From Candidatus Gastranaerophilales bacterium (GTDB lineage: Bacteria; Cyanobacteriota; Vampirovibrionia; Gastranaerophilales; Gastranaerophilaceae): a stretch of 64,000 bases of DNA. The stretch is from assembly GCA_017560095.1 (NCBI GenBank), contig JAFYOU010000006.1:1-64000 (forward strand), written 5' to 3'. This document shows positions 13,214-41,748 of the stretch, piece by piece. The position numbers and the translations under genes are program-made. Each line of letters opens with the position of its first letter. The first letter of the stretch is position 1. The notes under the pieces were generated by a model. The model ran no database searches and was not told where the DNA came from. It saw nothing but the letters and a program-made list of their open reading frames with translations.

Positions 13214-16200
13214 CTATTTGCTTAAATTGCAAAGAATACTCTTATAAGGACAATATTCACAAGATGTTTTACAAGGTGTTGGTTCAAAATTATGTGATTT
13301 TATACCTTTAATTGCGTTTCTATATTTATCTAAAATACGCTCAATATCATCATCTGAATAATAAATTGTGCAAGATTTATCATATTCTTGTGGGAATAAA
13401 AATGTTGTTTCTTCTACTTTTCTTCCCTCTTTATCGGTTTTTTCAAGAAAATATTTATATAATCCCATTTGAATATAATAATCTTCATGGATTCCCAACT
13501 TTTCATCATTAGAATCAGTTAAGCAAATTTCTTTTTTGGTCTTTGCTCTACCTGTTTTATAATCAAAAATTCTAAATTTGCCATCAACTAAATTCACTCT
13601 ATCTGGAAGTCCTTTAAATTGAACCCCTTCAAAATCAGCTATGATATCTTTTTCAATATTATAAATTGTATTAATATCAACCAAACTCAAATCTTTTTCA
13701 AAAAATTCTTTAATCGAAGTTTTTGCTATTGTTTTATATTGTTCTCTTTGATTTAGTGATGAAAAAGCAAATTTATCAATTTGAGTTTCAACCTCACTAA
13801 CAAAAGTTTCACTATCATAAAACACTTTATTTTCTATTGCATATTTAACCGCATTTTCGCAAGCTTTATGAACAGCGGAGCCAAAATTCATTGAATCAGG
13901 AATTGAGAAATTAGGCGAATTTAAACCCAAGATTTTATCAAAGAAAAACATTCTTGGACATTTTAAATATGGATTAATTAAAGATGGAGAATAATATTTT
14001 ATTTCTGAAATTGCACTATCAATATTTGATTTGAAATCTCTAACATAATCATAATCTTTAATTGTTAGCGCATTTGCCCAATTATAGATTTGAGGTTCAT
14101 TTTTTTCTTCGCAATAGTTATTTATTTCTAATAAATCCTGAGGAATTTCTTGAACCTTTAATAATGCACTATGTCCATCTCCAGCACTTGTTCCAATGTA
14201 TGAAAGCCTAAGCGTATGCTTTGCTCTTGTCATACCAACATACATTTTATTGATTTTATCAGCTAGCTTATATGCTTTCCATTGCGCATCTGTTCTTTCA
14301 TCAGCACTTGATAGTGGAACAGGTGGTTTAATAATTGGATGAGGACAACTTTCCCACTTGCTTGATTTTAAAGATGGCATATAAACATATTCATATTCCA
14401 ACCCTTTTGAGCTTTGATATGTTGTTAGTTGAATAGCATTCATTTTTATTGAATCTTTTTCAATTTTTAAATCAATTTTATCGTTTTGAAGCATATCAAG
14501 ATATTCAACAAAATCTTCTAAATTAACTTTTCTAAATTGACTAGAGTACAAATACGCTTCATCTAGTAATCTTTTTAGCGCTAAAGTATTTTCAAGTTTA
14601 TTTGTTTCAAAATTAAAGAAGAAATCTAAAATACCAGTTTTAGAAGCACATTGAGCAACTACCCTATAAACAGTTTCACCCGATAGCATTGTTGTTCTTA
14701 AATATTCATAAGTTTTAATGAATTTTTTAATATCATTTAGTGCTTCTTCTTTTTTAGCTAATTCTTTCATAGCTAGAATAAAATTCTTGTGTTTAGAATT
14801 TTCTTCTTGCAATAAATTAAATGATTTTGCTGAAAAATTAAATGGTGGCAATAATAAAAGCCTGAATAATTTATCTGAATTTAAGTCTGGATTAACCAAT
14901 GTTTGCAAATAATAGTACAAAACCATTGATGATTTTATAGCAAAAATGCTTTTACCATCTTTTAATTCATAAGGGATGTTTCTGTTGTGTAATTGCTCAG
15001 CATAATAAGCTAGTTCATCATTACTTGTTGATAAAATTGCAATTTGAGAATAATCTTTTTCTTTTGTTTCTTTGTCTATTGGACAAGAAGATGAATTTAT
15101 CAGTTCATCAATTTCTTTTACTATATCTAATGCTTGAGATACTTCATCATAATAGATATTAAGTCGAACTTTATTATCTTTAGTTATAACTTCATCATTA
15201 ACTGCTTTTAAGTTAATTTCTTTATCTAACAATTCTGCGTTTTGTTCAGCTACGGTTCTTGCTACATCTAAAATCGTTTGAGTTGAGCGTCTATTTTCAA
15301 CAAATTTTATTGGAGATTTAATTTCTTCTTTATATTTATCCCAAAAAGCTTGAATGCTATCAATCCTTGCTCCTTGAGAAGCATTAATAATTTGTTTATC
15401 ATCACCAACTACAAAAACATTTCCCTTTATTGAATTATCGACAAGATGAAAAATTAATTCATTTTGAGAGCGATTTGTATCTTGATATTCATCGATAATA
15501 ATATAGTCGTATTGATTTGAGATATTTTGAGCAAAACTTGGGTCAGATTCAAATTTCTCTAAAATATAGTTAATCATATCATCATAATCGATATAACTAC
15601 CTAATTCCATTTTTTCTCGATATAAGTTGAAAAATCGGTATAGTTCTCTAATTTTCGCTATTTTAATTTCAATTTTTTCAATATTTGCTTCATAGTTTTT
15701 TCTTTTCTTTGGAGCAAAATCTCTTTCATATTCTAACGCCTCGATTGCAGGCAACCATTCAGAGTCACTTTTGATATTTTCTTCTAATTGCTGAGCTTCT
15801 TTATCTAAAATTCTATATCTTTTTAAATATCCAATACCCTTTTCAATGGATTCAAAAGAAGAGTATTTATTAGCTTTTTCACTTTTATAATGCACAGCAT
15901 CACTAATTTCATCAATACATTCTTTAATTAATGCTCTTTTAATGCTGTCAGGGATTAATTGAATTGAGGCTGAAACATTGAATTCATCAGAATATTCACC
16001 AATTAACTTATTGCAAAAACTATGAAAAGTATGAATTTCAACGTTATTATTGTTTTCATCTAGCTCTTCTAAAACTCTTTTTTTCATCTCCGCAGCACCT
16101 GCTCGAGAATATGTCATACAAAGAATTCTCTCTGGCTTAACACCTTGTAAAATCATCGCTTGGAGTCTTTTTATAACAGTATAAGTTTTACCCGTTCCAG

Positions 16201-16300
16201 GTCCAGCTAAAACAAGAAACTTTCCATCAAGATTTTCAACGCATAATTTTTGCTTATCATTTAATTTTGAAAGAATTTCATCTAGTTTATCTACTGCCAT
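13214..16300 (-). CDS. UvrD/Rep-family helicase fused to an Fe-S PD-(D/E)XK nuclease
   Basis: 1028-aa DNA-repair type enzyme. Superfamily 1 helicase motifs: Walker A AGPGTGKT at residues 32-39, motif II IDEYQDT near 267, motif III VGDDKQ, and motif VI YVGMTRAK. The C-terminal third holds a RecB/AddB-like nuclease domain with FDYKTGRAK (catalytic D and K) near 913. LKCPRMFFF together with the C-terminal C-x3-C-x2-C-x6-C gives cysteines as in AddB-type iron-sulfur nucleases. It may act alone or with an AddB-like partner that is not in the window. GGGAG precedes the ATG. Recombination repair and defence roles are both possible. Confidence 0.88.
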   Translation of the reverse strand: MAVDKLDEILSKLNDKQKLCVENLDGKFLVLAGPGTGKTYTVIKRLQAMILQGVKPERILCMTYSRAGAAEMKKRVLEELDENNNNVEIHTFHSFCNKLIGEYSDEFNVSASIQLIPDSIKRALIKECIDEISDAVHYKSEKANKYSSFESIEKGIGYLKRYRILDKEAQQLEENIKSDSEWLPAIEALEYERDFAPKKRKNYEANIEKIEIKIAKIRELYRFFNLYREKMELGSYIDYDDMINYILEKFESDPSFAQNISNQYDYIIIDEYQDTNRSQNELIFHLVDNSIKGNVFVVGDDKQIINASQGARIDSIQAFWDKYKEEIKSPIKFVENRRSTQTILDVARTVAEQNAELLDKEINLKAVNDEVITKDNKVRLNIYYDEVSQALDIVKEIDELINSSSCPIDKETKEKDYSQIAILSTSNDELAYYAEQLHNRNIPYELKDGKSIFAIKSSMVLYYYLQTLVNPDLNSDKLFRLLLLPPFNFSAKSFNLLQEENSKHKNFILAMKELAKKEEALNDIKKFIKTYEYLRTTMLSGETVYRVVAQCASKTGILDFFFNFETNKLENTLALKRLLDEAYLYSSQFRKVNLEDFVEYLDMLQNDKIDLKIEKDSIKMNAIQLTTYQSSKGLEYEYVYMPSLKSSKWESCPHPIIKPPVPLSSADERTDAQWKAYKLADKINKMYVGMTRAKHTLRLSYIGTSAGDGHSALLKVQEIPQDLLEINNYCEEKNEPQIYNWANALTIKDYDYVRDFKSNIDSAISEIKYYSPSLINPYLKCPRMFFFDKILGLNSPNFSIPDSMNFGSAVHKACENAVKYAIENKVFYDSETFVSEVETQIDKFAFSSLNQREQYKTIAKTSIKEFFEKDLSLVDINTIYNIEKDIIADFEGVQFKGLPDRVNLVDGKFRIFDYKTGRAKTKKEICLTDSNDEKLGIHEDYYIQMGLYKYFLEKTDKEGRKVEETTFLFPQEYDKSCTIYYSDDDIERILDKYRNAIKGIKSHNFEPTPCKTSCEYCPYKSILCNLSK

Positions 16301-18448: not shown

Positions 18449-18465
18449 ATCTTTTGAACACATAT
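18449..18465 (+). repeat. 17-bp direct repeat, right copy, flanking hipBA
   Basis: Second copy of the 17-mer at 16738-16754, placed exactly at the stop codon of the WYL gene. The two copies bracket hipBA and its operators. Confidence 0.75.
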
Positions 18466-19427
18466 TAATAATTATCTAAATTTTCTTTTAGATAATTCTT
18501 ATAAGTTTCTTTTAAACTTTCTGGTTTATTAATCTTACAACCCTTGCCCCATTTAAAAATATGCCAGATAATTTCACGTTCTCCGCAAGCTTTAAAATTA
18601 ACTAATAAATTTCCATTCTTTTGCTTTTTAATAGTTTGTGTTGGATGGAAATTATAGTCCATTGCTTCTATTGCAAGCGACTTATCAAACTCCAATTCAA
18701 CATCTAAAATTTCACCTTGATAAACCCCAAAAGATCTATTTGCAAATTCTTGAAGATTAAAATTATGTTTTTTAAATTTAGCTTCTGTCATTTTTAGGTT
18801 TTTAAATTTATGCAAAGTATAAGTATAAATATCATCCCCTTTTGCTTTTTCGTGAGCTATTAAATATGTTTTTTCGCCATAAATTAACCCTAAAGGTTCT
18901 AATATTCTTTTTTTATTATGATAAATTCCAACTAATTTTTTACTTTGCGATAGAGCGTTTTTAACTTCTTCAAGCGTTTCAATATCAATTTTATACTGAG
19001 GGATTTGTTTTATTGCGTGTCCCTGAGTTTGCATTAAGAGTTTAATATTTTCTTCATTAGTTAAAGTGTTTTTGATATTAATCGCTTGTAATTTTTCAAT
19101 TGTTTTTCTTAATTGGATTTTTATTTCTTTATTTGTTGTTCTTTTAATTAAATTTTCAAGTCCGATCAATTCTTCTTTATCAAGAGTTATTAAAGAATTA
19201 ATTGAATAATTGATAAACCCCCAATGTTTTTGTGCGTCAGCCGTATCTATTTCATCAATCGATGGGAAAATATTTAATAAGCTATCTCTCATCCTCTCAG
19301 CCGTGCGACGAGAAACATTATATCTTTCCATAATATCTGAAATAGTAATTCCAAGACTTTTTGATTGCATAAAAATAGCTAAATCTAAAATGTCTGAAAC
19401 ACGAGAATATCTAGGTTTATCTTGCAT
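18465..19427 (-). CDS. WYL-domain transcriptional regulator (copy 1)
   Basis: 320-aa regulator: N-terminal winged helix (residues 5-55, KPRYSRVSDI then YNVSRRTAERMRDSL), a WYL domain at about 150-225 and a C-terminal WCX-like domain (FHPTQTIKKQ, GEREIIWHIFKWG). Such proteins sense nucleic acid or nucleotide ligands and often control defence genes. AAGGGAG precedes the ATG. It is divergent, with 71 bp between, from the membrane protein at 19499. It closely resembles the regulator at 30880 and the truncated one at 34310, showing duplication within the island. Confidence 0.88.
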   Translation of the reverse strand: MQDKPRYSRVSDILDLAIFMQSKSLGITISDIMERYNVSRRTAERMRDSLLNIFPSIDEIDTADAQKHWGFINYSINSLITLDKEELIGLENLIKRTTNKEIKIQLRKTIEKLQAINIKNTLTNEENIKLLMQTQGHAIKQIPQYKIDIETLEEVKNALSQSKKLVGIYHNKKRILEPLGLIYGEKTYLIAHEKAKGDDIYTYTLHKFKNLKMTEAKFKKHNFNLQEFANRSFGVYQGEILDVELEFDKSLAIEAMDYNFHPTQTIKKQKNGNLLVNFKACGEREIIWHIFKWGKGCKINKPESLKETYKNYLKENLDNY

Positions 19428-29029: not shown

Positions 29030-29614
29030 TTAATTTATTTTATGCAATTTAGCATATTTAAATCCGCCATACCAACGGTTCCAGCTCCTATTGCTTGGAT
29101 GATAATTTTTTATTTTTTTTCCATTTTTAGGCACAATGTAATAATAATTCTTACCTGCTACCATTTTTAATTTAGGAAATTTTTCTTTGTATTTTTTTTC
29201 ATTAGCTTCACCCCAAGCTAAAACTATATCAGTATTTTTACCTATACGCTTATTAATATACTCAATACAGTTGCAACTCATATTAATTTCATCAATAGAC
29301 GGATTTCTCTCGGGAAAAATATTAACAACGCAAAAAGACGAAGCTTTTTCATCTTTTGCCAATTTTCTACAATTTGCAATAGTTGGGTCATCTTCATGTT
29401 CATCTGCTTTACTTGGATTAAACAAAATAAATAATAGGTTCTTACCATTTCCGCTTTCTAAACTTTCTTTGTAAAAATATCTGTATTTTGCTTTGTTTTT
29501 ACTAATCCTATTATATACGGCACTAGTTTTATCATATTCTTCTTTTGAAAAAACTGCATATCCATTTGCAAAATCTAATTCTTTTTTTACGGAATCTTGT
29601 ATCAAAATATCCAT
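29030..29614 (-). CDS. DUF1643 family protein (copy 1)
   Basis: 194 aa. It has the DUF1643 core LLFILFNPSKADEHEDDPTI near 60-80, followed by the conserved Cys (NCRKLA) and VVNIFPERNP, and a C-terminal VLAWGE plus HPS motif. The family is of unknown function, frequently found near phage and defence genes. AAGGAG precedes the ATG. A second, diverged member is at 40315-41007 beside the FtsZ-like genes. Confidence 0.8.
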   Translation of the reverse strand: MDILIQDSVKKELDFANGYAVFSKEEYDKTSAVYNRISKNKAKYRYFYKESLESGNGKNLLFILFNPSKADEHEDDPTIANCRKLAKDEKASSFCVVNIFPERNPSIDEINMSCNCIEYINKRIGKNTDIVLAWGEANEKKYKEKFPKLKMVAGKNYYYIVPKNGKKIKNYHPSNRSWNRWYGGFKYAKLHKIN

Positions 29615-30254: not shown

Positions 30255-30866
30255 ATGGACGATTTTCAAAAAAGTGTTTTTATAGAATATTATTTCAATT
30301 CTATTGATTTTATAGTAAGTGAAACAAGAGTTGATTTGATTATAGATATGTTTGATTCAATAGTTCAAGAGTTCGATTTAGAAAAAGAAACAAAAGAATT
30401 TAAAGAAACAAATTTCAATCCTTACAAAAATATTGAAGATAGGAAAATTGAATTAACAAAAGAGTTTTTTAAACAAGAATTAACTAAAATCAAAAAGACT
30501 TTAAAACCAAAACAAGCACAAAGCTATAAAGCATTATCAAAAATCAAAAAAGAAAATTGGCTTAATAATGACCAATTCAAAGTTTTGACTTATTTTGATT
30601 TTGCCGCTAAAAACTACGCATTTTTAAAATTAATTCAAGCAATAGATAACCCTATAAGGCAAGAGTTTTGTTTTATGCCAATGTTATTAAAAATGAAGAG
30701 TGAAAAAGTAATTAAAAGCTTTGATAAAATTTTTAGAAAAAAATTAATTCAAATAAAACCCCATGGTTCATCAAACTATATCGCATATTTTACTCCATTT
30801 GATAAATCAACAAAAGCTTATGAGGGTTTTGAAAATATTGCATATAAGTATAAGCAGGCAGTATAA
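30255..30866 (+). CDS. Hypothetical protein preceding WYL regulator copy 2
   Basis: 203-aa soluble, Lys- and Phe-rich, helical protein of unknown function. AAAGGAG is 8 nt before the ATG. Its N-terminus (FQKSVFIEYYFNSIDFI) loosely resembles that of the AAA protein at 31931 (FEKRMLVEYLDKHIENI), so the two may share a short interaction domain; this is weak. The stop lies 13 bp before the WYL start, so they are an operon. Confidence 0.6.
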   Translation: MDDFQKSVFIEYYFNSIDFIVSETRVDLIIDMFDSIVQEFDLEKETKEFKETNFNPYKNIEDRKIELTKEFFKQELTKIKKTLKPKQAQSYKALSKIKKENWLNNDQFKVLTYFDFAAKNYAFLKLIQAIDNPIRQEFCFMPMLLKMKSEKVIKSFDKIFRKKLIQIKPHGSSNYIAYFTPFDKSTKAYEGFENIAYKYKQAV

Positions 30867-30879
30867 TAATGGAGGAGTT

Positions 30880-31860
30880 ATGGAGCAAAATATGGAAGAA
30901 AAACCTCGCTATTCAAGAATAACAGATATTATTGATTTAATTATTCTTATGCAATCAAGATTTAATGGAATAACTTTGGCTGATATTCAAGAAAAATTCA
31001 ATGTTTCAAGAAGAACAGCAGAGCGAATGAGAGATAGCTTGATGAATATTCTACCTTCTGTTCAAGAACTAGAAACGGACGGCAGAATTAAGCGTTGGGG
31101 TTTTGTTAACTACTCAATGTGCGAAGTTATTAATTTTGCAAATAATGAAATCGCAATTTTAGAAAAAATTAAAAATAAAGCAGATGTTGTAACCCAAGCT
31201 GATTTAGCCAAAATAATTGATAAAATTAAGGCTTTACAAACAAGAAAAAATAATATTGATATTGAAAAAGAGGTTGAATATTTAATGCATTTTGAAGGAA
31301 GTGCTGTTAAACAATCTCCAAAGTATAAGCTAAATCTTGATAATGTTCAAAAAATTAGAAGTGCAATTAAAGAACATTTGAAATTAAAAGCAAAATACAA
31401 CGATAAAGAAAAACTGCTTTTACCATTAGGATTAATTTTTTCAAACAAAGTTTATCTAGTAGCAATTGAGGAAAACAAAGGCGATAGTCCATATCATTAT
31501 TTACTTCATAAATTCAGTGATGTTGAAGTTATATCTGAAAAATTTGAAAAAGAAGATTTTGATTTGCAAAATTTTGCTAATCAATCTTTTGGAATTTATC
31601 AAGGTGAAAGCTATAGTGTTAAGCTTGAATTTGATAAATCTTGCGCTCATGATGTTTTGAATTTTAACTTCCACCCAACTCAAAAAATTAAAGAACAAAA
31701 AAATGGTAATGTTTTAGTTGAATTTAAAGCAAGTGGCGAAAGAGAGATTTTATGGCATATTTTCACTTGGGGAGATAAAGTTAAAATTCTTGAACCTAAA
31801 GCTTTGAAGCTAAAGTATGTTGAGATGATGGAAAATTGCATTAAAGTACAAAATTCTTAA
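30880..31860 (+). CDS. WYL-domain transcriptional regulator (copy 2)
   Basis: 326-aa paralogue of the regulator at 18465: HTH EKPRYSRITDIIDL...FNVSRRTAERMRDSL, WYL domain around 150-235 and C-terminal FHPTQKIKEQ and GEREILWHIFTWG. I start at the ATG at 30880, which has a strong GGAGGAG and an N-terminus matching the paralogues, not at the earlier in-frame Met at 30763. It sits between a hypothetical gene and the tandem AAA ATPase, the usual place for a local regulator of a defence-like operon. Confidence 0.88.
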   Translation: MEQNMEEKPRYSRITDIIDLIILMQSRFNGITLADIQEKFNVSRRTAERMRDSLMNILPSVQELETDGRIKRWGFVNYSMCEVINFANNEIAILEKIKNKADVVTQADLAKIIDKIKALQTRKNNIDIEKEVEYLMHFEGSAVKQSPKYKLNLDNVQKIRSAIKEHLKLKAKYNDKEKLLLPLGLIFSNKVYLVAIEENKGDSPYHYLLHKFSDVEVISEKFEKEDFDLQNFANQSFGIYQGESYSVKLEFDKSCAHDVLNFNFHPTQKIKEQKNGNVLVEFKASGEREILWHIFTWGDKVKILEPKALKLKYVEMMENCIKVQNS

Positions 31861-31930: not shown

Positions 31931-32701
31931 ATGAAAAGTTTTGAAAAAAGAATGCTAGTTGAATATCTAGATAAACATATTGAAAATATTGATTTTGATT
32001 CTAATAACATTGATGACTTAATTTCAAGTATTATTTCAGATTTAAAAATTAAAAAAACAAAATTTAAGTTAAGTGAAAAAGGAGACTTATTACTCAATAC
32101 CTCAAGCGAATGCCATGATTTTAGAGTGCAACTCCATTGTGAAATTACAAAATTAAAGAAAAAATCTAAAAATAAGATAACTCCTTTTGAAGAAAAACTT
32201 AATGTAATCAAAAAAATTTATGCCCTAGAAGAACAAGATTATTTAATATTAATTTTTTATGTTTTAAAAGAATTAAGCACAACAATTCATCTTCTTTCAG
32301 AATGTTTATCTAGAGATTTTTTATCGTTTTATTTTAATTGCAGATATGGTTATAGAAGCCGTGATTTTGAACGCAACTTACAAAATTATGGAATTTTATT
32401 TTATGAAGGCTGTGAATACCAGCTCAATAAAAACATTTTAGACATTTTAACTTCATCAAGTTTTAATAATGAAGATAAAATTATAACAAAATTATTAGGC
32501 AAAAAAATAAAAAGTAAACTTAAACCTAAGGATTTCACTCATTTATCTCAAGAATTAAATAAAGCCACCAAGCTTTTAGAATCAGCTACTAAGTCAAAAC
32601 AAAAAGGGGTAAATATATTTCTTTATGGAGATGTTGGTTGCGGCAAAACTGAATTTGCAAAATTAATTGCAAATAGCGCAAAACAAATATGCACGAAGTA
32701 A
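31931..32701 (+). CDS. Tandem AAA ATPase, 5' part before a frameshift
   Basis: 256 codons. Residues 1-195 form a helical N-terminal region of unknown role; the end has a Walker A, GDVGCGKTEF near 233. The frame then stops at 32701, before a Walker B. The matching rest of the AAA domain begins in the -1 frame at about 32680, so this and the next entry were one gene. AAGGGAAGG precedes the ATG. Either a genuine disruption, a sequencing error in the A-rich stretch, or a programmed -1 slip on AAAA at 32677-32683. Confidence 0.75.
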   Translation: MKSFEKRMLVEYLDKHIENIDFDSNNIDDLISSIISDLKIKKTKFKLSEKGDLLLNTSSECHDFRVQLHCEITKLKKKSKNKITPFEEKLNVIKKIYALEEQDYLILIFYVLKELSTTIHLLSECLSRDFLSFYFNCRYGYRSRDFERNLQNYGILFYEGCEYQLNKNILDILTSSSFNNEDKIITKLLGKKIKSKLKPKDFTHLSQELNKATKLLESATKSKQKGVNIFLYGDVGCGKTEFAKLIANSAKQICTK

Positions 32702-33912
32702 TTACAGAAACAAAAGATTTTTGTGAAGCCAAAAGAAAAGATAGATTAAATAGCTTGCGCTCATTACAAAAAATCTTATCTAACACAAGCAATTCCTGTA
32801 TATTATTTGATGAAGCACAAGATGTTATGAATACTGGTTTTTCAATATTTGGTGATGCATCAAAAAGCTTTTTAAATAAAACTTTAGAAGAAAGCCCCGT
32901 TCCAATCATTTGGACAACAAATGATATTTATGAAGTTGACCCTGCATTTTTAAGAAGAATGACTTATGCAATTGAATTTAAAAAGCCAAACGATAAGATA
33001 AGATTAAATATTTGGAAGCAAATCTTAAAAGAAAACAAATTTGAAATAAGCGATAAGAAATTAATCAAGCTAAGTCAGGATTATGAAATAGCTCCCGCAT
33101 TAATTGAAAATGCCATTAAGTCAACTAAGATAATCAACGGAACAGAAGATGATTTTGAAGATTTTATTAAAAATGTTGAAAAAATTGTCTCTAAGAAAAA
33201 AAGAGTCAAAAAAGAAAACCCCCAAAAATTAGATAGCTACGATATTAATTGCGTTAACGCTGATATAGATATTTTGGATTTAACAGAAAAAATCAAAGAG
33301 TCAGGTAATTTAAATTTTTCTCTATGCCTTTATGGCGAACCAGGGACAGGTAAAAGCCAATACGCAAGATATCTAGCAGATTATCTTGGAATTGATGTTG
33401 TATTCAAAAGAGCTAGTGATATAAAAAGCAAGTGGGTTGGTGAAACCGAAAGAAATATAGCGAGTGCTTTTGAAGAAGCAAGAGATAAAAAAGCAATGCT
33501 AATTTTTGATGAAGCAGATAGCTTTTTGCAAAACCGAAATAATGCAAGAGCAAGTTGGGAAGTTTCGCAAGTGAATGAGATGTTAACTTGGATGGAATCG
33601 CATCCGTATCCTTTTATTTGCACAACAAACTTGATGAATTCAATAGACGAAGCAAGCTTAAGACGCTTCACTTTTAAAATTAGATTTGACTTTTTAAATA
33701 AAGAGCAAGCAAATTTAATGATGGAAAACTTTTTTGATATTGAAACAGACTTTGACCTTCAAGGCTTGACCCCAGGGGATTTTGCAACTGTTAAAAAGAA
33801 AGTTGATTTTTTAAAGATTAATTCCGAAAAAGAAATCATAAAAATGTTGCAAGATGAAGTTAAGGTTAAAAAATCAGATGCACTAAAAAAAGTTGTTGGC
33901 TTTAATAACTAA
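32689..33912 (+). CDS. Tandem AAA ATPase, 3' part after the frameshift
   Basis: 407 codons from the first Met. It opens with the remaining part of AAA domain 1 (Walker B CILFDEAQD near 38, sensor WTTND near 77, RR finger) and continues into a complete second AAA domain: Walker A YGEPGTGKSQYAR near 213, Walker B AMLIFDEADSF near 264, sensor ICTTN and RRFTFKIRF arginine finger. It ends with a helical lid. Relatives are proteasome/FtsH-like AAA remodelling ATPases. The ATG at 32689 has no ribosome binding site, favouring production by frameshift or loss of function. Confidence 0.78.
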   Translation: MHEVITETKDFCEAKRKDRLNSLRSLQKILSNTSNSCILFDEAQDVMNTGFSIFGDASKSFLNKTLEESPVPIIWTTNDIYEVDPAFLRRMTYAIEFKKPNDKIRLNIWKQILKENKFEISDKKLIKLSQDYEIAPALIENAIKSTKIINGTEDDFEDFIKNVEKIVSKKKRVKKENPQKLDSYDINCVNADIDILDLTEKIKESGNLNFSLCLYGEPGTGKSQYARYLADYLGIDVVFKRASDIKSKWVGETERNIASAFEEARDKKAMLIFDEADSFLQNRNNARASWEVSQVNEMLTWMESHPYPFICTTNLMNSIDEASLRRFTFKIRFDFLNKEQANLMMENFFDIETDFDLQGLTPGDFATVKKKVDFLKINSEKEIIKMLQDEVKVKKSDALKKVVGFNN

Positions 33913-34573: not shown

Positions 34574-35122
34574 TCAAAGTTCAAAATTAGAATAAGATAG
34601 CTCGATTTCTTCTTGCGAAATACCAATATATCGCAAAGTAATGCTTGGACTGGAATGATTTAAAATATTTTGCAAAAGAGCTACATCATTAAACTTTTTA
34701 TAATGATGATAGCCAAAAGTTTTTCTCATTGTATGCGTTCCAATTGCCCCAACATTAATCTTTGTTTTTTTAATTGCATCATTAATAAAGCGATAGACAA
34801 TACTTCTATGCAATCTTGAACCTTTATCCCCTAAAAACAATGGGCGATTTAATTCTTTAGCTTCTTTTAAATACTCTTCAATTAATTGCTTAAGCTTATT
34901 GTTTAATGGAAATTTTTTGTATTTTTTAGTCTTCTTTTCTCTAATCACAACATGGGTTTTATTTTTAACATCACCCACATTTAAACCCAAAATATCAGAA
35001 ACTCGAAGCCCAGTGTTAATTCCAAAAGCAAAAATCAACCTATCCCTTTTAGATGTGTTCTCAAGATATTTTTCAACAAGCTCAATATCTTCCTTTTTTC
35101 GTATCGGTTCAACATAGTTCAT
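34574..35122 (-). CDS. Tyrosine recombinase, catalytic domain only
   Basis: 182-aa integrase/Xer-type recombinase. Catalytic residues are visible: Arg in NTGLRVSDIL near 38, Lys in KKTKKYKKF near 64, HTMRKTFGYH near 130 (His and Arg), LNHSS near 153 (His) and the nucleophile in TLRYIGIS near 164. The N-terminal core-binding domain is missing, which is known in small recombinases of integrative elements and integron-like units. AAGGAG precedes the ATG. It is the only recombinase in the window and likely connected with mobility of this island. Confidence 0.88.
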   Translation of the reverse strand: MNYVEPIRKKEDIELVEKYLENTSKRDRLIFAFGINTGLRVSDILGLNVGDVKNKTHVVIREKKTKKYKKFPLNNKLKQLIEEYLKEAKELNRPLFLGDKGSRLHRSIVYRFINDAIKKTKINVGAIGTHTMRKTFGYHHYKKFNDVALLQNILNHSSPSITLRYIGISQEEIELSYSNFEL

Positions 35123-35203: not shown

Positions 35204-35294
35204 TATTCTTTTGACACAATTTTATCAAATTTAAAAAGCTTTCAAATCCACTATTCATTTGAACAACTCCATATTATTTAATATAGAGTTGAAA

Positions 35295-36599
35295 ATGGGT
35301 AATAAAAATTTAAAAGAAGCAAAAGAGGCAAAAAATGATGAATTTTATACAGAACTTTCTGAAATTCAAGCAGAAATGAATAATTATACTGATAAATTTA
35401 AAAATAAAGTTGTTTATTGCAATTGTGATGACCCTTTTGAAAGCAATTTTGTAAAATATTTTCTTATGAACTTCAATAGATTAGGGTTAAAAGAGCTTAT
35501 CGCAACAGGATATAAAACAAGCCCATTTAGAGGAACAGAACTCAATATCATGGATGCAGCATATTCTATTCGTATTACTAACACAAAAAAATATCTCGTT
35601 GGAACTCAATCAGACCTTGATATAAAAGGTGTAATGTATTTTTTAACGACTGAAAAAGATAAAATTACATCAAAACTTATTGGAAATTACGCACTAGATG
35701 AAAACAAGAATAAAATTCAAATAGCTGTAAAAGAAACATATACTAATAATGGTAAAGAAAAAAAACGAACAGTTAAACAAGATTTGTATTATGAAGCAGG
35801 AGACTTTAGAAGCGATATGAGTATTGCACTCTTAAAGCAATCCGATATTGTTGTAACAAATCCGCCTTTTTCTTTATTTAGAGAATATTTTAACCAACTA
35901 ATGTCATATAAAAAACAATTTATTATATTAGGCAATATAAGTGTTGTTACAAATATAGAGTTTTTCCCTTTTATTAAGAATAATATGGTATGGGCAGGAT
36001 GCGTTAGTGGTAGCAAAAAATATAGAGTGCCGGAAAATTATGCAGCTGAAAATCCTAATAAAGTTTATGTTGAAAATGGCAAAAAATATGCAAAATTTGG
36101 AAATACAATGTGGTTTACAAATATAGACCATGCCAAAAGGCATCAATTTTTGCCATTAAATCTTGGGTATAAGTATCATGGCCATGAGAAAATGTATCCA
36201 AAATATGATAATTATGATGCCATAGAAGTTGAAGAAATATCAAAAATACCTTATGATTACACAGGTGTAATGGGTGTTCCAAATTCATTTATTCACAAAT
36301 ACTGCCCTGAGCAATTTGATATTATTGGCATACCAACAGCAGCGTCAAATGAAGGCTCTTTGAATCTTAACAAGGACTATAAAACTTACATAGGATATAA
36401 GCAAGATGGTACTAGGACAGGTCGTACAGGAAGCACTTTCGGTGCCTGCCCTGTATTTGAACGAAACGACCACAAAAACATATATTATACAAATGGCAAA
36501 AGAACGGTGCAAGCAGGAAAATGTATGCGCATTTTTATAAAATTTAAAAAAGCATATATTTCGCAACATCCTGAATTATTTGGAAATACGGAGGAATAA
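35295..36599 (+). CDS. EcoRI-type adenine-specific DNA methyltransferase
   Basis: 434 aa. The N-terminus NKNLKEAKEAKNDEFYTELS matches the conserved start of EcoRI-family N6-adenine methyltransferases, and VVTNPPFSLF near 185-194 is the catalytic NPPF motif. I start at the ATG at 35295 because the family begins there; an upstream TTG at 35259 lacks support. It protects or marks DNA in a restriction-modification pair with the HNH gene that starts 3 bp after its stop. Codon use is less AT-biased than that of its neighbours, suggesting recent transfer. Confidence 0.88.
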   Translation: MGNKNLKEAKEAKNDEFYTELSEIQAEMNNYTDKFKNKVVYCNCDDPFESNFVKYFLMNFNRLGLKELIATGYKTSPFRGTELNIMDAAYSIRITNTKKYLVGTQSDLDIKGVMYFLTTEKDKITSKLIGNYALDENKNKIQIAVKETYTNNGKEKKRTVKQDLYYEAGDFRSDMSIALLKQSDIVVTNPPFSLFREYFNQLMSYKKQFIILGNISVVTNIEFFPFIKNNMVWAGCVSGSKKYRVPENYAAENPNKVYVENGKKYAKFGNTMWFTNIDHAKRHQFLPLNLGYKYHGHEKMYPKYDNYDAIEVEEISKIPYDYTGVMGVPNSFIHKYCPEQFDIIGIPTAASNEGSLNLNKDYKTYIGYKQDGTRTGRTGSTFGACPVFERNDHKNIYYTNGKRTVQAGKCMRIFIKFKKAYISQHPELFGNTEE

Positions 36600-36601
36600 A
36601 T

Positions 36602-37939
36602 ATGATTAAGATAGTTGACTATGGAAAAATAAAAGTAAGTGATTTAATTGAAGGCTTTATGGAAGATAACACAACAGGAGAAGTGACTTCCATGAATGGC
36701 AGACTTAATATCAGACCTGCATATCAAAGAGAATTTGTTTGGGATAAAGGTGCAGACAATGGCGGCAAAAAGCAAATTGATTTAATTGATTCTATCTTGA
36801 ATGGTTTTCCAATAAATGTAATGTATTTTGTTAAAACAGGTGTAAATCAAGACGGTGAAGACATGTACGAGGTTCTCGATGGGCAACAACGTATTATAAC
36901 AATGTGCCATTTTAGAGAAAACCGATTTGGGTTATCCGATGGAACTCAATATGATGGACTTACCGATAATGCCAAATTTAACAATTTCAATACTTTTACT
37001 GTTTATATATGTGAGGCAGATACTCTTGATGAAAAATTAGATTGGTTCCAACGAGTAAATACAGCAGGCGAACCTCTGTCAAAGCAAGAAATGCGTTCAG
37101 CTATTGCTTGCGGAGAAGGCACTACTCGTGCTAAAAAATATTTTGTTAACACAAGAGAAACTAATGGGACAAATGCTTATTCATACGATATTCAATCAGG
37201 CAGACCAGCAAAAGATTATATAAAAAAAGCATGGGACAGACAGGATGCATATGAACAAGTGATAACCTGGTTCATTAACAGCAAAAAAGATGATGACATC
37301 CTTTCATTTATGAAAAACAATCGTAATAATGTGACAAAAGCAGATGAAATGTTTGAATATTATAAAAATGTTATAAAATGGATAAAGAGATTATTTCCTA
37401 CTTATAACTCTGACATGAAAGGAGTTGATTGGGGATTTCTCTATAATAAATACCATAACAATATGACAATGACTTCAAAAATTCTCGAAGAACAGATTAA
37501 ATATCTTCGTCAAGATGTTGGTAATGGGGATAATGACCACTTAAAAACAACTAAAGGTATATATGAATACGTGCTTGCAATTGCAAACGGTGAAAATCCA
37601 AATGATGCCATCAAATATCTTGAACCACGGGTTTTTAGCGATAAAGACAAAAAGGCTCAATATGAACGACAACGACATGTTTGTCCACATTGCATGAAAA
37701 GATTTGAAGATGTTTCTTGGATGGTAGGAGACCATATCATACCGTATAATCCAATCCCTTCTGCTGGTCAAGAAAATGGCAAAACTACACCTGAAAATCT
37801 TCAAATGCTCTGTTATAGTTGCAATTTAAATAAAAGCAATCATCCATTTGATAAAAAAGCAGAAGAAAAACGACTTCAAGATTTATACAATATGTCAGAT
37901 GAAGAAATTGCCAACTTGCCAGAAGGTAATGTTTCATAA
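36602..37939 (+). CDS. DUF262 and HNH endonuclease-like protein
   Basis: 445 aa. Residues about 10-230 form a DUF262 domain with the nucleotide-binding DGQQR motif near 95 and YQREFVWD near 40; the C-terminus has an HNH nuclease: CPHC near 360, VGDHIIPY near 378 and CYSCNLNKSNHP near 408, with zinc-binding CxxC pairs. DUF262-HNH proteins include GmrSD-type modification-dependent nucleases. It is coupled to the methyltransferase (GAGG before ATG). It is probably the restriction partner, perhaps cutting DNA lacking or carrying the partner's mark. Confidence 0.85.
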   Translation: MIKIVDYGKIKVSDLIEGFMEDNTTGEVTSMNGRLNIRPAYQREFVWDKGADNGGKKQIDLIDSILNGFPINVMYFVKTGVNQDGEDMYEVLDGQQRIITMCHFRENRFGLSDGTQYDGLTDNAKFNNFNTFTVYICEADTLDEKLDWFQRVNTAGEPLSKQEMRSAIACGEGTTRAKKYFVNTRETNGTNAYSYDIQSGRPAKDYIKKAWDRQDAYEQVITWFINSKKDDDILSFMKNNRNNVTKADEMFEYYKNVIKWIKRLFPTYNSDMKGVDWGFLYNKYHNNMTMTSKILEEQIKYLRQDVGNGDNDHLKTTKGIYEYVLAIANGENPNDAIKYLEPRVFSDKDKKAQYERQRHVCPHCMKRFEDVSWMVGDHIIPYNPIPSAGQENGKTTPENLQMLCYSCNLNKSNHPFDKKAEEKRLQDLYNMSDEEIANLPEGNVS

Positions 37940-38037
37940 AGACTTTTTAGTTTATTCTAAAAAGTTGAGTAAATATTATAATATTTAAAGCAATATTTTT
38001 CAAATTTTACCCAAACAAATCCAATCTTCATCAAGAC

Positions 38038-38066
38038 ACCCCCTACTTATTTGCGGAGGGGTTTTT
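38038..38066 (+). terminator. Terminator after the restriction-modification operon
   Basis: CCCCTaC-loop-GcGGAGGGG hairpin followed by TTTTT, about 100 bp after the HNH gene. Confidence 0.7.
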
Positions 38067-38210
38067 GATTAATGAAGGCGAAATTTATTCAAGAATTTAA
38101 AAAAGGTAATTTTTTGTTGCAATTTTTTGAAATACCCTCTGTTCATTTGCGATAGCACAAAATCGCAAACTGGCACCATGTTTTTTCTTATATAGTATAT
38201 CTATACCTAA

Positions 38211-38354
38211 CTGTTAAAATATGTATATTTTAAGGTATATTTTTCATATAAATATGCTTAAAATTTAAGGCAATTTTACTATCTGTTAAAATGTGGAATA
38301 AAAATAACATACCCTTTGTTAAAATGCGATTTTAATTTCTGCTAAAATGCGGAA
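38211..38354 (+). repeat. Four GTTAAAAT(G) direct repeats upstream of the first FtsZ-like gene
   Basis: GTTAAAATATG (38213), GTTAAAATGTGGAA (38285), GTTAAAATGCGAT (38318) and GCTAAAATGCGGAA (38341). All are in the same orientation with irregular spacing (72, 33, 23 bp). They resemble iteron-like protein binding sites and end 56 bp before the gene. Confidence 0.6.
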
Positions 38355-38374
38355 AATAATTTTTCAATATACGT

Positions 38375-38400
38375 CCAAGATTGGTGTATTAATAATTTAA
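38375..38400 (+). promoter_or_regulatory. Shared island promoter element of the first FtsZ-like gene
   Basis: CCAAGATTGGTGTATTAATA followed by TAAACT at 38398-38403, 6 nt before the ATG; a leaderless start is likely. Confidence 0.45.
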
Positions 38401-38409
38401 ACTAAAAAT

Positions 38410-38901
38410 ATGAATAATTTAAAACCATTTTGTATAATTTCAATTGATGGAAGACTTAACAAATTTAGCAAAAATTTTCCTAAGCTAAATTCTTGTGTTT
38501 GTTTTTCAATTGATTCACATGAAAATTTTAATGAAACAGAATTAAAAGAAAAAACAAAAGATTACCACAACATTATTATTGTTTGTGGACTAGCAGGAGA
38601 AAGCGCAGGTAGAATTCTTTTGAATATCCTTGATATTTTAAAAGATAAAAATTGCCTTGTTGTTGCAAATACTCCTTTTGATTTTGAAGGTAAAAAGAGA
38701 AGAAAAATAGCAAATGAGATATTAGAAATCCTTGAAATTAAAAACATAAACAAGCTTATCTTCTATTCAAGAAGCTTTTTTAAAAAATGGAAAGAAGAAG
38801 ATTTGGATGGCTTTAAAAATATCTATAGCTTTGTTGATGTGCAACTTGTTGAAACGATTAACAAGGTAATTGAGGCGAATAGTTATAAATACCGAAAATA
38901 G
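38410..38901 (+). CDS. Degenerate FtsZ-like protein A
   Basis: 163 aa. Residues 55-120 match the middle of the FtsZ GTPase domain: NIIIVCGLAGESAGRIL is in the place of the strand plus GGGTGTG loop, and VVANTPFDFEGKKRRK copies FtsZ's VTKPFxFEGxxR. The glycine loop is replaced by GLAGESAG and the N-terminal nucleotide-binding strand is missing, so GTP binding is unlikely. It aligns without gaps with the better conserved protein at 39636. No Shine-Dalgarno is present. Possibly a partner or antagonist of an FtsZ-type polymer; function unknown. Confidence 0.6.
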   Translation: MNNLKPFCIISIDGRLNKFSKNFPKLNSCVCFSIDSHENFNETELKEKTKDYHNIIIVCGLAGESAGRILLNILDILKDKNCLVVANTPFDFEGKKRRKIANEILEILEIKNINKLIFYSRSFFKKWKEEDLDGFKNIYSFVDVQLVETINKVIEANSYKYRK

Positions 38902-39008
38902 TTATTCTCAAATATTTGAAACAGAGGGCGATATTGCAAAAGCAAGATTTCAAGAGATATTTAAGGGGGTGGTTTAAAAATATTTTAAACAAATTAAAAT
39001 CCGACATA

Positions 39009-39476
39009 TTACATTTTAGTCGTTTCATTAATTATATACATAAATTCGTCCCTACAAGCTTCAACAGCTTGTGCAAAAATAGCTCCTTTACCAAGCTTAT
39101 TTACAATGGCATCATTTTTTATAATTTCAACATTAGCTCGTTCGGTTAATAAATACTCCAATGTTTCAAGTGCATTATTTCTCTTTCTTTGTCCTTCAAA
39201 TTTAAAAGGAATATTTGTTACGATAACGCACTCTTTATTAATCAAATGCAAAGCATACTTTAAAAAAATAGATGCTTTTCTTGAACCCGCTTCTAAAGCA
39301 AAAACGATTTTTTCATACGTATTTGTTTTTATCAAAAATTCATCATCTGAAATGCTAGAACTTACATCTATTTCTATACAATCATAGTCCTTATTGTCAG
39401 AAATATTAAGTTTAATGCTGTCTTCAAAATCTTTAATTAATACAACACAATAAGTTTTTTGTGCTAATTTTGTCAT
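39009..39476 (-). CDS. Degenerate FtsZ-like protein B
   Basis: 155 aa, related to proteins A and C: TYEKIVFALEAGSRKASIFL in the position of the GTP loop and VIVTNIPFKFEGQRKRNNAL matching the PFxFEGxxR segment. The loop has lost its glycines entirely, so it cannot bind GTP in the FtsZ manner. AGAGAGG precedes the ATG. Convergent to A and divergent from C, with mirrored promoter elements between B and C, which suggests the two are controlled together. Confidence 0.6.
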   Translation of the reverse strand: MTKLAQKTYCVVLIKDFEDSIKLNISDNKDYDCIEIDVSSSISDDEFLIKTNTYEKIVFALEAGSRKASIFLKYALHLINKECVIVTNIPFKFEGQRKRNNALETLEYLLTERANVEIIKNDAIVNKLGKGAIFAQAVEACRDEFMYIINETTKM

Positions 39477-39524
39477 AATTTTACCTCTCTAACTAGTTTT
39501 TGCGAATTTGCATATTTTCATTTT

Positions 39525-39597
39525 ATTTCATTAATACGCCAAAAACGGGCGAATAAAAAATATTTAATAATGCACCCGTTTCTGACACGTATAAAGC
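39525..39597. promoter_or_regulatory. Mirrored promoter elements between FtsZ-like genes B and C
   Basis: Minus strand CCCGTTTTTGGCGTATTAAT (39525-39549) reads toward B; plus strand CCCGTTTCTGACACGTATAA (39575-39597) reads toward C. The two are near-identical, arranged as a back-to-back inverted repeat. Confidence 0.6.
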
Positions 39598-39635
39598 TTA
39601 TGATAAAAATATCGAGATTATATTAAAGGTGAACT

Positions 39636-40259
39636 ATGATAAAAAAGAAATTAAATTTCCAAGATAAATACACGCTTGTTAAAATTACAGTTGCAGGTAT
39701 TGGTGTTGGCGCTCAAAATGTTGTTGATTACTTATCATTAAATAATCAATCTGAAAACATAAGTTTCGCTGTTATTAACTCAGATAAAAATATTTTAGAA
39801 ACTGCAAAAACCAAAAATAAATTGTTAATACATGGCAAAGAAAAAACTTTTTACGGCTTAGGTTGTGGCGGAAATGTTCCTGTTGGAAAACAATATGCAG
39901 AGTTTTGCATTAATGAAATTGAAAATTTATTCAATGATACTGATGTTGCAATTCTTGTTTCTTGCTTTGGTGGAGGTTGTGGAACTGGCGCAACACCTGT
40001 TATTGCGCAAATGCTAAAAAATAAAGGCATTAAAACAATTGCAATAGTTTCTAAACCTTTTGATTATGAAGGCGAGCGCAGAAAAGAATGTACGGCATTG
40101 GGAATAGAAAAAATAAAAAATTTTGTAGATAAATTAATTCTTGTTGATAACCAAGATTTCATGACTACTCTTCCAGAAGACATAACATTAAAAGAAGGTT
40201 GGAATTATGCAAATAAAAAAATAGCAGAACTTTTTGAGAAAGAAATTGCTGAATTCTAA
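39636..40259 (+). CDS. Half-length FtsZ/tubulin-like GTPase-domain protein C
   Basis: 207 aa covering only the nucleotide-binding half of FtsZ. Visible: AGIGVGAQNVVDYL (residues 20-33, GTP loop T1), INSDKNIL (T2-like), GLGCGGNVPVGKQYAE (T3-like), FGGGCGTGATPVIAQ near 110 (tubulin signature GGGxGTG), and VSKPFDYEGERRK near 139. It ends about where helix H7 begins, so the T7 loop with the catalytic Asp and the whole C-terminal domain are absent. It may bind GTP but cannot complete the interface active site with itself. AAAGGTG is its ribosome binding site. Confidence 0.8.
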   Translation: MIKKKLNFQDKYTLVKITVAGIGVGAQNVVDYLSLNNQSENISFAVINSDKNILETAKTKNKLLIHGKEKTFYGLGCGGNVPVGKQYAEFCINEIENLFNDTDVAILVSCFGGGCGTGATPVIAQMLKNKGIKTIAIVSKPFDYEGERRKECTALGIEKIKNFVDKLILVDNQDFMTTLPEDITLKEGWNYANKKIAELFEKEIAEF

Positions 40260-40314
40260 ATATCAAAAATTGTGATGTTGAAGATATTAAATAGAAATGA
40301 CAAAACTCATCAAC

Positions 40315-41007
40315 CTATAATTTTTCAAATGAAACGTTTTCCAATTTTGGGTTTTTACAAAATTCATTAACATATTTTGCACACCTAGGGCTTGGATGAG
40401 TTGGTTGGCCTGTTTTTTTATTTATTCTATATGCAAAAAATTTAATATCTTTATTTTTTTTATCATCAATTGCGGTTTTAATTGCATTAAAATATTCTTC
40501 TTCAAGTTTATTCTTAGGGTCATTACCCCAAGCAATTATAACTTTTGAGATATTTTTTTTCGATAACTCATCAGCTAACTTAAAAATTGGATTACTAAGT
40601 TTTTCATATTCGAGTTTAATCAACTTAATAGCTTCTTGAATTTTAGGATGTCTTGTTGTAAATGTGTTATATATAACCATTCCGCCGATTTTTTCTTCTT
40701 GCTCTTTATTTAACGCATAGCAAATTTTTACACAATTTTTTAAAGTACCATCCAATTCCTTAGAATTTGCATGGCTTGGATTAAAAAGAATAAAAGCTAT
40801 TTTTTCCTTTTCCTTATCCCAAATTACTTCATAACTCAATCTATTTTTTGGGCATCTTTCTTTGTTATTTTCTGATACACACAATTTGTCATAATATTGA
40901 AAATTTTCAAATTCATAGTCATCATCACCAAATATAGGGGTTTTTATTGCATTTTCATTAACATGTTTTACAAAATCTTCAGTGCTTAAATTATATAATT
41001 CCTTCAT
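40315..41007 (-). CDS. DUF1643 family protein (copy 2)
   Basis: 230 aa. Core IAFILFNPSHANSKELDGTL near 70-90 with the following Cys (NCVKIC), VIYNTFTTRHP and VIIAWGND, matching the protein at 29030 in order and spacing. The C-terminus has QPTHPSPR, the HPS motif also seen in copy 1. It differs from copy 1 in lacking the DD of DDPT (LDGT instead). Convergent with FtsZ-like C. Function unknown. Confidence 0.75.
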   Translation of the reverse strand: MKELYNLSTEDFVKHVNENAIKTPIFGDDDYEFENFQYYDKLCVSENNKERCPKNRLSYEVIWDKEKEKIAFILFNPSHANSKELDGTLKNCVKICYALNKEQEEKIGGMVIYNTFTTRHPKIQEAIKLIKLEYEKLSNPIFKLADELSKKNISKVIIAWGNDPKNKLEEEYFNAIKTAIDDKKNKDIKFFAYRINKKTGQPTHPSPRCAKYVNEFCKNPKLENVSFEKL

Positions 41008-41748
41008 GACAAAATTAACCTTTCAAAACCTATCTAAATTAACACATAATTAGCTCCCAAATTTCAACTTATCTATCAAAAATTTATCGTATATAGGCAT
41101 AAACCTGCATTTATCTTGTTAAAAACTCAACTGAAACATCATCAAAAAAACTGTGCACTTTTGTAGAGAATCTGGCAATTCAATAGCGAATGTAATTGAA
41201 AGTCAATTGGCGAGAATGTTTGATTTGTTTGGATTTGAGGCTAACTTCCGTCAGTACCATAGCAACTTTTTTAGATTTGCCACTTTTGCCGAATTTTTGC
41301 CAAAATTTTTGCCGTTTTTTCACTTATCCTTGTTGTGTTTTAGTGATTTTTGGTGTGTGTTTTGAATTTTCAAGATTGCAAAAATATGCAAAAAATGTAA
41401 TCCAAATGTAATTCAAATGTAATTGAAGAAAATTTACTTCCACAAGTCGGAAATGCTTTTAAAGCAATACTTTTAGCTTTTAAAAACATAATTTTTCAAT
41501 TACATTCCTACATTCTTTTTATGTAATCGAAGCACAATGTAATTGAAGATTGTTCAATTATATAAATGGGGGGGATTAAAACATTGCTATTATTTACTTT
41601 AAGATAGTTTTTAATAATTACATAAAGTTTTGACAATTCAACAAAATACATAAAAATGTATTTTTCAATTGTAAAATTTATGTAACATTGCAAAAATAAA
41701 CATCAAAAAAACAATTTTTAATGTTTTATTATAATGCAAGGAGTCAGC
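41008..41748. other. 741-bp gap with ATGTAATTGAA repeats, no clear gene
   Basis: Frames at 41153-41411 lack ribosome binding sites and are unusually rich in Phe. The notable content is the repeat set at 41190-41547 and the segment 41447-41480 shared with 22042-22110. A Shine-Dalgarno for the next gene closes the gap. Confidence 0.55.
41190..41547 (+). repeat. Iteron-like 11-bp repeats ATGTAATTGAA
   Basis: Copies at 41190 and 41537 (exact), three in tandem with 11-bp period at 41395, 41406 and 41417, ATGTAATCGAA at 41521 and an inverted copy at 41495-41505. The period of one helical turn puts the tandem copies on one face of the DNA, as for initiator or transposase binding sites. Confidence 0.7.

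Follow-up and report, generated by a model that had tools for sequence, protein, structure and literature searches.

The first 64,000 nucleotides of contig JAFYOU010000006.1 (assembly GCA_017560095.1) of a gut bacterium, a Candidatus Gastranaerophilales member, referred to here as the window, carry between positions 38,410 and 40,259 three short genes, the products of which (proteins A, B and C) appear to represent a family of accessory one-domain paralogues of FtsZ located in islands that also contain WYL regulators and genes of defence type. Protein A (38410-38901, + strand; 163 amino acids) is a shrunken FtsZ GTPase domain which lacks the T1, T3 and T4 phosphate loops and keeps T5 (TPFDFEGKKR). 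Its homologue, protein B (39009-39476, - strand; 155 amino acids), is without T1 and T4 and also keeps T5 (IPFKFEGQRK). Protein C (39636-40259, + strand; 207 amino acids) is a one-domain FtsZ in which T1, T2, T3, T4, T5 and H7 are kept and which stops just before T7. A sequence-only reading of this DNA had pointed to these three open reading frames (ORFs), and their lengths and positions are confirmed. The mirrored promoters which it described are not borne out: B is merely divergent from C and convergent with A, and the 25 promoter-like sites are in no clear excess over the 19.6 ± 4.4 of shuffled sequences.

Protein C matches the Pfam Tubulin/FtsZ domain (PF00091) with an E value of 9e-28 and 98.2 bits, against a curated cut-off of 33, and among PDB entries it matches chains of FtsZ (E ~4e-30). 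In a motif alignment it possesses T1, T4 in the form GGGCGTG and T5 in the form KPFDYEGERR, while in A and B T1 and T4 have been lost and PFxFEGxxR/K is retained, all of which agrees with what had been claimed; the three proteins end by the start of T7, with zero residues beyond it. The AlphaFold2 (AF2) model of A has a predicted local distance difference test score (pLDDT) of 84.3, and its residues 5-163 align to FtsZ residues 22-217. Because of this coverage A represents a whole GTPase domain in which the T1-T3 part is compressed, and its earlier description as a half-FtsZ aligning with the second half of C was rejected. When this model was used in structure searches all 50 VIA-align rows were FtsZ, as were 48 of the 50 Foldseek matches listed, the other two being a TubZ and an azoreductase. 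C likewise gives a clear fold match to FtsZ; in the predicted models of A and C the GTPase-domain fold is complete, and both terminate in H7. B shows approximately 25% identity to A across its length in a sequence alignment and a weak PF00091 match under the cut-off (E 0.0047), and a profile of the C family run against the ORFs of 13 loci recovered it at E 1e-5 (A at E 8e-8). A and C are therefore GTPase domains of the tubulin/FtsZ superfamily, C by domain match and A by fold. Self-assembly of A, B or C into a polymer of the FtsZ type is unlikely, because none of the three extends beyond the beginning of T7.

That the short FtsZs are terminal pieces of ordinary ftsZ genes, left by decay or misassembly, an objection which the sequence-only reading had itself raised with regard to C, is very improbable and was rejected. 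The end of C does fall at a plausible truncation point, and one genome (G043) has a clearly decayed copy, a 60-amino acid frame with two stops within the match. (This copy, at L056:10930-11112, has three DUF1643 genes alongside.) Against decay, the host genome possesses an ordinary 403-amino acid ftsZ on a different contig, C is present on six public contigs, the longest of 658 kb, and no remnant of the host FtsZ C-terminal domain was found around C (window 38001-41500) at E≤10. A protein search with C returned 73 matches, 49 of them sized like C (195-223 amino acids), although some of the weaker among these 49 are probably pieces of ordinary FtsZ; 26 of the 73 were used to build the C alignment. 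The search with B gave 11 matches, the top six of 155 amino acids, and a joint A/B profile added seven more. The A alignment comprises 13 sequences, after removal of P0080 and P0090, whose ends are odd, and of the fragments P0082-P0084, P0089 and P0091. The ratio of nonsynonymous to synonymous substitution rates (dN/dS) is 0.11-0.43 across 12 gene pairs, which include altered members and A and do not include B or the window's C; the tested pairs are thus under purifying selection. For A and its relative in G189, another species of the same genus, dN/dS is 0.13 at a synonymous divergence (dS) of 1.4. In a tree of 29 of the 37 collected rows, altered ones excluded, C is placed with other one-domain proteins and apart from host FtsZ, with support of 94/93, which is below the tree tool's star, several forks being weak and long branches meeting.

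A search of genome contigs revealed eight loci, in three Candidatus Gastranaerophilales metagenome-assembled genomes (MAGs), two MAGs titled Cyanobacteria, one uncultured bacterium and two Bacteroidales MAGs. Within the order, short FtsZs occur in at least 21 of 286 genomes and 12 of 50 genera; this lower bound counts genomes with extra matches, one of them the decayed copy of G043, and excludes G185 (a 354-amino acid second frame), G068 (where the contig ends) and five genomes with weak matches (G314, G317, G338, G381 and G385). Among the matches listed, a full-length FtsZ accompanies the short one in 20 of the 21 carriers, G121 being the remaining one. Among 99 genomes of the order to which one of the Bacteroidales carriers belongs, two are positive, G287 (234 amino acids) and G489 (258 amino acids), each with a full-length FtsZ; frames at or near contig ends in G466 (212 amino acids) and G492 (281 amino acids) are excluded from this count. 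On the basis of this distribution the short FtsZs are a patchy accessory family. At E≤1e-8, two of 384 genomes in the family have an A-type gene and only this one has a B-type gene; the remaining matches are weaker and represent short FtsZs that are more distant, and relatives. Since B is so restricted, the exact A-B-C trio was found in no other of the 384. Pairs of short FtsZs do, however, recur. As a separate matter, many genomes of genus g7 have two FtsZ genes with frames of ~372-436 amino acids.

Nine of the 24 neighbourhoods contain a group of at least two FtsZ-like genes, three in the window and two each in L006, L007, L010, L042, L043, L044, L046 and L053; L045 has a possible second short FtsZ of 198 amino acids missed by every profile used. 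In seven of these nine (the window, L010, L042-L044, L046 and L053) one member with intact T1/T4 loops is accompanied by another in which they are altered, the loops of L043, which lies outside the alignment, being taken from its near-copy L042 (identical profile scores). Both short FtsZs look intact in L006 and L007. A T7-like sequence is absent from 29 of 33 aligned members and a complete C-terminal domain from 31, being present in the second protein of L046 and the 310-amino acid protein of L053, and partial in the second protein of L007. The two genes of L046 overlap (L046:9318-10743, genome G199), the first specifying a 198-amino acid one-domain protein with intact loops and the second a 278-amino acid protein with altered T4 and a full-length C-terminal part; it is possible that they form a heteropolymer pair. 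Similar serine recombinases of 525 amino acids are specified between the two short FtsZ genes at L042:13071-14648 and at the equivalent positions in L043 and L044, and their sharing by genomes of three genera suggests island transfer.

The T5 loop provides a clue to mechanism. Loop statistics were derived from 25 of the 33 aligned members, eight near-duplicates having been dropped. The mean identity to host FtsZ of the 11 altered-loop members (the profile-undetected second protein of L045 included) is 0.19-0.38 for T1-T4 and 0.60 for T5; the T5 value for the 14 other members, among them L047, which starts late and is without T1, is 0.68. The three most conserved positions in the altered members, P146, G151 and F149, all belong to T5. 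By alignment offset F149 corresponds to F138 of Staphylococcus aureus FtsZ, which lies on the top longitudinal interface and whose mutation blocks polymerisation (PMC5414002), and in 23 of the 25 members the position aligned with L178 of Escherichia coli FtsZ, another residue of the GTP surface (PMC13423816), holds I, L, M or F.

We advance tentatively, as a reading which could well prove wrong, that the short FtsZs are mimics of the top face of FtsZ, the one on the nucleotide side with the T5 loop at its centre, and cap, titrate or act as a decoy. With at least part of the top face kept and the T7-bearing bottom domain absent, they might bind a full-length host FtsZ at its free T7 face and would be incapable, for want of the bottom domain, of extending the filament in FtsZ style; the filament would be ended or its subunits titrated. 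Such capping might hold cell division while the island nucleases act, or alternatively the proteins might be offered as decoys to phage proteins which attack FtsZ. In this scheme C would depend on GTP, and A and B would be either GTP-independent forms or regulators of C. Of the mechanisms proposed in the sequence-only reading, capping of FtsZ remains the best. Taken further, there could be a new immune module which mimics the division protein of its own host, with GTP-binding and GTP-free one-domain FtsZs paired in one island under WYL control, capping or decoying FtsZ and coupling phage infection to division halt or nuclease activation; this too we offer as a possibility and not as the expected outcome.

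Several observations count against this proposal. T66, a further top-face polymer residue, is T in only 2 of the 14 members and in none of the 11, and the S. aureus and E. coli positions were equated by offset. In the 217-amino acid close relatives of C in L042 and L044 a 19-residue insertion lies inside T5 and ES replaces EG. The second L046 protein and the 310-amino acid L053 protein have a C-terminal domain, and the second proteins of L006 and L007 extend into a T7-like stretch. T5 could be retained for folding or for a different partner, and the members, which cluster with each other, may pair among themselves. Lastly, no partner family is common to all 24 loci, four of which (L005, L009, L011 and L048) lack all five of the principal neighbour families described below, and the neighbour association is one of shared islands, not of one pathway.

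A decoy might also act as a guard. In this alternative phage proteins which attack FtsZ would bind the short FtsZs and thereby trigger the WYL regulator or an island nuclease, leaving host FtsZ untouched. FtsZ is indeed targeted by a phage protein and takes part in triggering one immune protein: T7 Gp0.4 binds FtsZ and the resulting complex activates CapRel (PMC13423816). The multiple, diverged copies found in 9 of the 24 loci, the adjoining WYL regulators, and the loss of polymer function with partial retention of the surface would all suit a guard. We nevertheless regard it as unlikely, as A is so shrunken that portions of the FtsZ surface are missing, and no fusion of a short FtsZ to an effector turned up, no systematic search for fusions having been made.

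The island in which A, B and C reside contains defence-type genes and a recombinase, as had been stated, and Pfam and PADLOC matches support this. Tail to tail with C is a gene for a 230-amino acid DUF1643 protein (40315..41007, - strand; PF07799, E 1.8e-15); a second DUF1643 protein of 194 amino acids is specified at 29030..29614 (- strand), and these are the genome's only two DUF1643 matches. On the other side of A lie genes for a 445-amino acid restriction-type nuclease with GmrSD_N and HNH domains (36602..37939, + strand; PADLOC REase_II, E 5e-68), an EcoRI-type adenine methyltransferase of 446 amino acids (35259..36599, + strand; PF13651, E 9e-107) and a short tyrosine recombinase of 182 amino acids (34574..35122, - strand; PF00589, E 2.6e-27). 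Further away are two overlapping ORFs (31931-32701 and 32689-33912, together 31931..33912, + strand) which cluster with a single AAA ATPase of ~660-690 amino acids elsewhere, an HTH-WYL/WCX regulator (30763..31860, + strand; WYL-family match at G000:C57:30892-31845), a second such regulator (18465..19427, - strand), and a 1028-amino acid UvrD helicase with a C-terminal PD-(D/E)XK nuclease (13214..16300, - strand). The families of the first regulator and of the helicase recur beside short FtsZs. A HipA-type kinase (PF07804, PF13657) is specified in the same island at 16814-18049. PADLOC matched the window's UvrD and AAA proteins to the Gabija GajB and IetA models; it gave no families for C or the adjacent DUF1643 protein, and no GajA match among the 10 proteins scanned. 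No complete named defence system was identified, nor any clear attachment site, the repeats around the island being short and imperfect.

The recurring neighbours are the HTH-WYL/WCX regulator, DUF1643, WG-repeat proteins, UvrD with PD-(D/E)XK, a tandem AAA ATPase, a DnaB-like ATPase and RtcB. The 24 short-FtsZ loci were compared with 20 control stretches picked by position on the short-FtsZ-bearing contigs of carrier genomes; the families were defined from the short-FtsZ loci themselves, with own-locus matches kept for the window piece. WYL was present in 13 loci versus no controls, DUF1643 in 11 versus 0, WG repeats in 10 versus 1, UvrD-PDDEXK in 9 versus 1, AAA in 7 versus 0, RtcB in 4 versus 0 and, a weak excess, the DnaB-like ATPase in 5 versus 2; at least one of WYL, DUF1643, WG, UvrD and AAA occurred in 20 of 24 loci and 2 of 20 controls. 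Fisher tests on these counts overstate independence, as L042-L044 and L006-L008 are mutual near-copies. A WYL gene lies within 10 kb of the short FtsZ in at least 16 of the 21 carrier genomes, but with members in 127 of 286 genomes the family is not specific to short FtsZs. Nine members, among the matches listed, are ≥73% identical to the L004 copy (itself included), and eight of these are in carriers, the ninth being in G041 near a contig end. A DUF1643 match is found 0.1 to 9.8 kb from the short FtsZ in 13 of the 21 carriers and anywhere in 14, as against 46 of the 265 other genomes. The motifs of DUF1643 prompt the guess that it may be a relative of uracil-DNA glycosylase (UDG); UDG itself (PF03167) was found in L004 and L006. 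A gene for an RtcB RNA ligase, accompanied by a small partner gene, lies near the WYL regulator at L044:13522-14643, with relatives in five other stretches. In L007:11023-12450 and L008:2647-3918 a DnaB-like ATPase and WG repeats share one frame beside short FtsZs, PF03796 and PF14903 having been established on the L008 protein, to which that of L007 is similar by sequence.

The excess of UvrD-PDDEXK, WG and, weakly, DnaB-like neighbours could instead mean that the short FtsZs are now subunits, some GTP-binding and some pseudo-GTPase, of a helicase/AAA/WG/DnaB-like complex, an internal switch unrelated to division. An ATPase-WG protein sits between the two short FtsZs of L007, and the coexistence of intact and altered loops in most multi-copy loci would suit such a device. 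We find it doubtful, as there is no one partner in all loci and the best conserved patch of the altered members is a polymer-interface loop of FtsZ.

An unrelated role as island cargo, for example in partition or as a phage-type tubulin, is improbable. A large terminase occurs near the short FtsZs of L042, L043 and L049 (Pfam test on L042), and a serine recombinase is nearby. Phage origin was rejected, as the IMG/VR scan yielded 121 pattern matches and no relative, and the four records opened of 19 matched in a phage collection all have frames of 399-425 amino acids, the length of ordinary FtsZ. Moreover, the filament-forming TubZ and PhuZ possess a C-terminal domain. The plasmid search returned 113 records, all below 60% identity, and five of the eight rows listed are annotated as cell division protein FtsZ.

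Should the short FtsZs act on FtsZ, as our preferred reading of top-face mimicry has it, they would be an example of a polymer protein evolving into a non-polymerising regulator, would reveal which FtsZ surface matters without GTP, and would furnish a small genetically encoded FtsZ-binding tool. The retention of T5 without GTP loops makes the idea directly testable.

Compared with canonical FtsZ (PF00091 plus PF12327), the GTPase-domain fold is the same and C has the T1/T3/T4/T5 motifs and H7; the T7 loop and C-terminal domain are absent from A, B and C, and C is separate from the host ftsZ. The island recalls Gabija GajB and IetA through its UvrD and AAA model matches, and differs in that the helicase has its own PD-(D/E)XK. 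SulA and MciZ are small FtsZ-directed inhibitors, and they and T7 Gp0.4 resemble the short FtsZs in size and in acting on FtsZ (proposed for the latter) but are not FtsZ folds. A "mini-ftsZ" (PMC3762067) was rejected as a precedent, being a laboratory construct, and passages of PMC7641849, PMC13231603 and PMC13160076 treat WYL, DUF1643 and glycosylase defence and have no bearing on FtsZ. The suggestion that the cluster matches no published system stands: the proteins are real, conserved and FtsZ-derived, and in the open-licence literature, most subscription papers lying outside the search, nothing that we found describes bacteria with extra, domain-truncated (one-domain) FtsZs in defence-type islands. 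FtsZl1 and FtsZl2 (Makarova and Koonin 2010; PMC2875224) belong to the FtsZ superfamily and accompany a conventional FtsZ as accessory proteins. FtsZl1 is described as having no recognised T6-H7 elements or FtsZ C-terminal domain, mostly a helical C-terminal domain together with a coiled coil, and vWA, kinase, GTPase or OmpA neighbours, while FtsZl2 has all motifs including T7, a ~300-amino acid extra C-terminal region and no associated genes. The short FtsZs, in contrast, keep H7 and stop there, and often adjoin WYL, UvrD, DUF1643 or WG; in contrast to FtsZl1, H7 is the last element of the A and C models and no vWA occurs among the Pfam-scanned neighbours, and A, B and C have neither T7 nor anything beyond, unlike FtsZl2. 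The GAP1-N2 GTPase-tubulin conflict systems (Kaur et al. 2020; PMC7159879) include tubulin/FtsZ-superfamily members, sometimes two, which are described there as fused to coiled-coil or helical domains and located with GAP1-type, vWA and TRAFAC GTPase proteins; among the Pfam-scanned subset of our neighbours there is no GAP1, TRAFAC GTPase or vWA. The fold is thus known and the family appears to be new, its nearest published counterparts being FtsZl1/FtsZl2 and GAP1-N2, from which it differs in domains and in neighbours.
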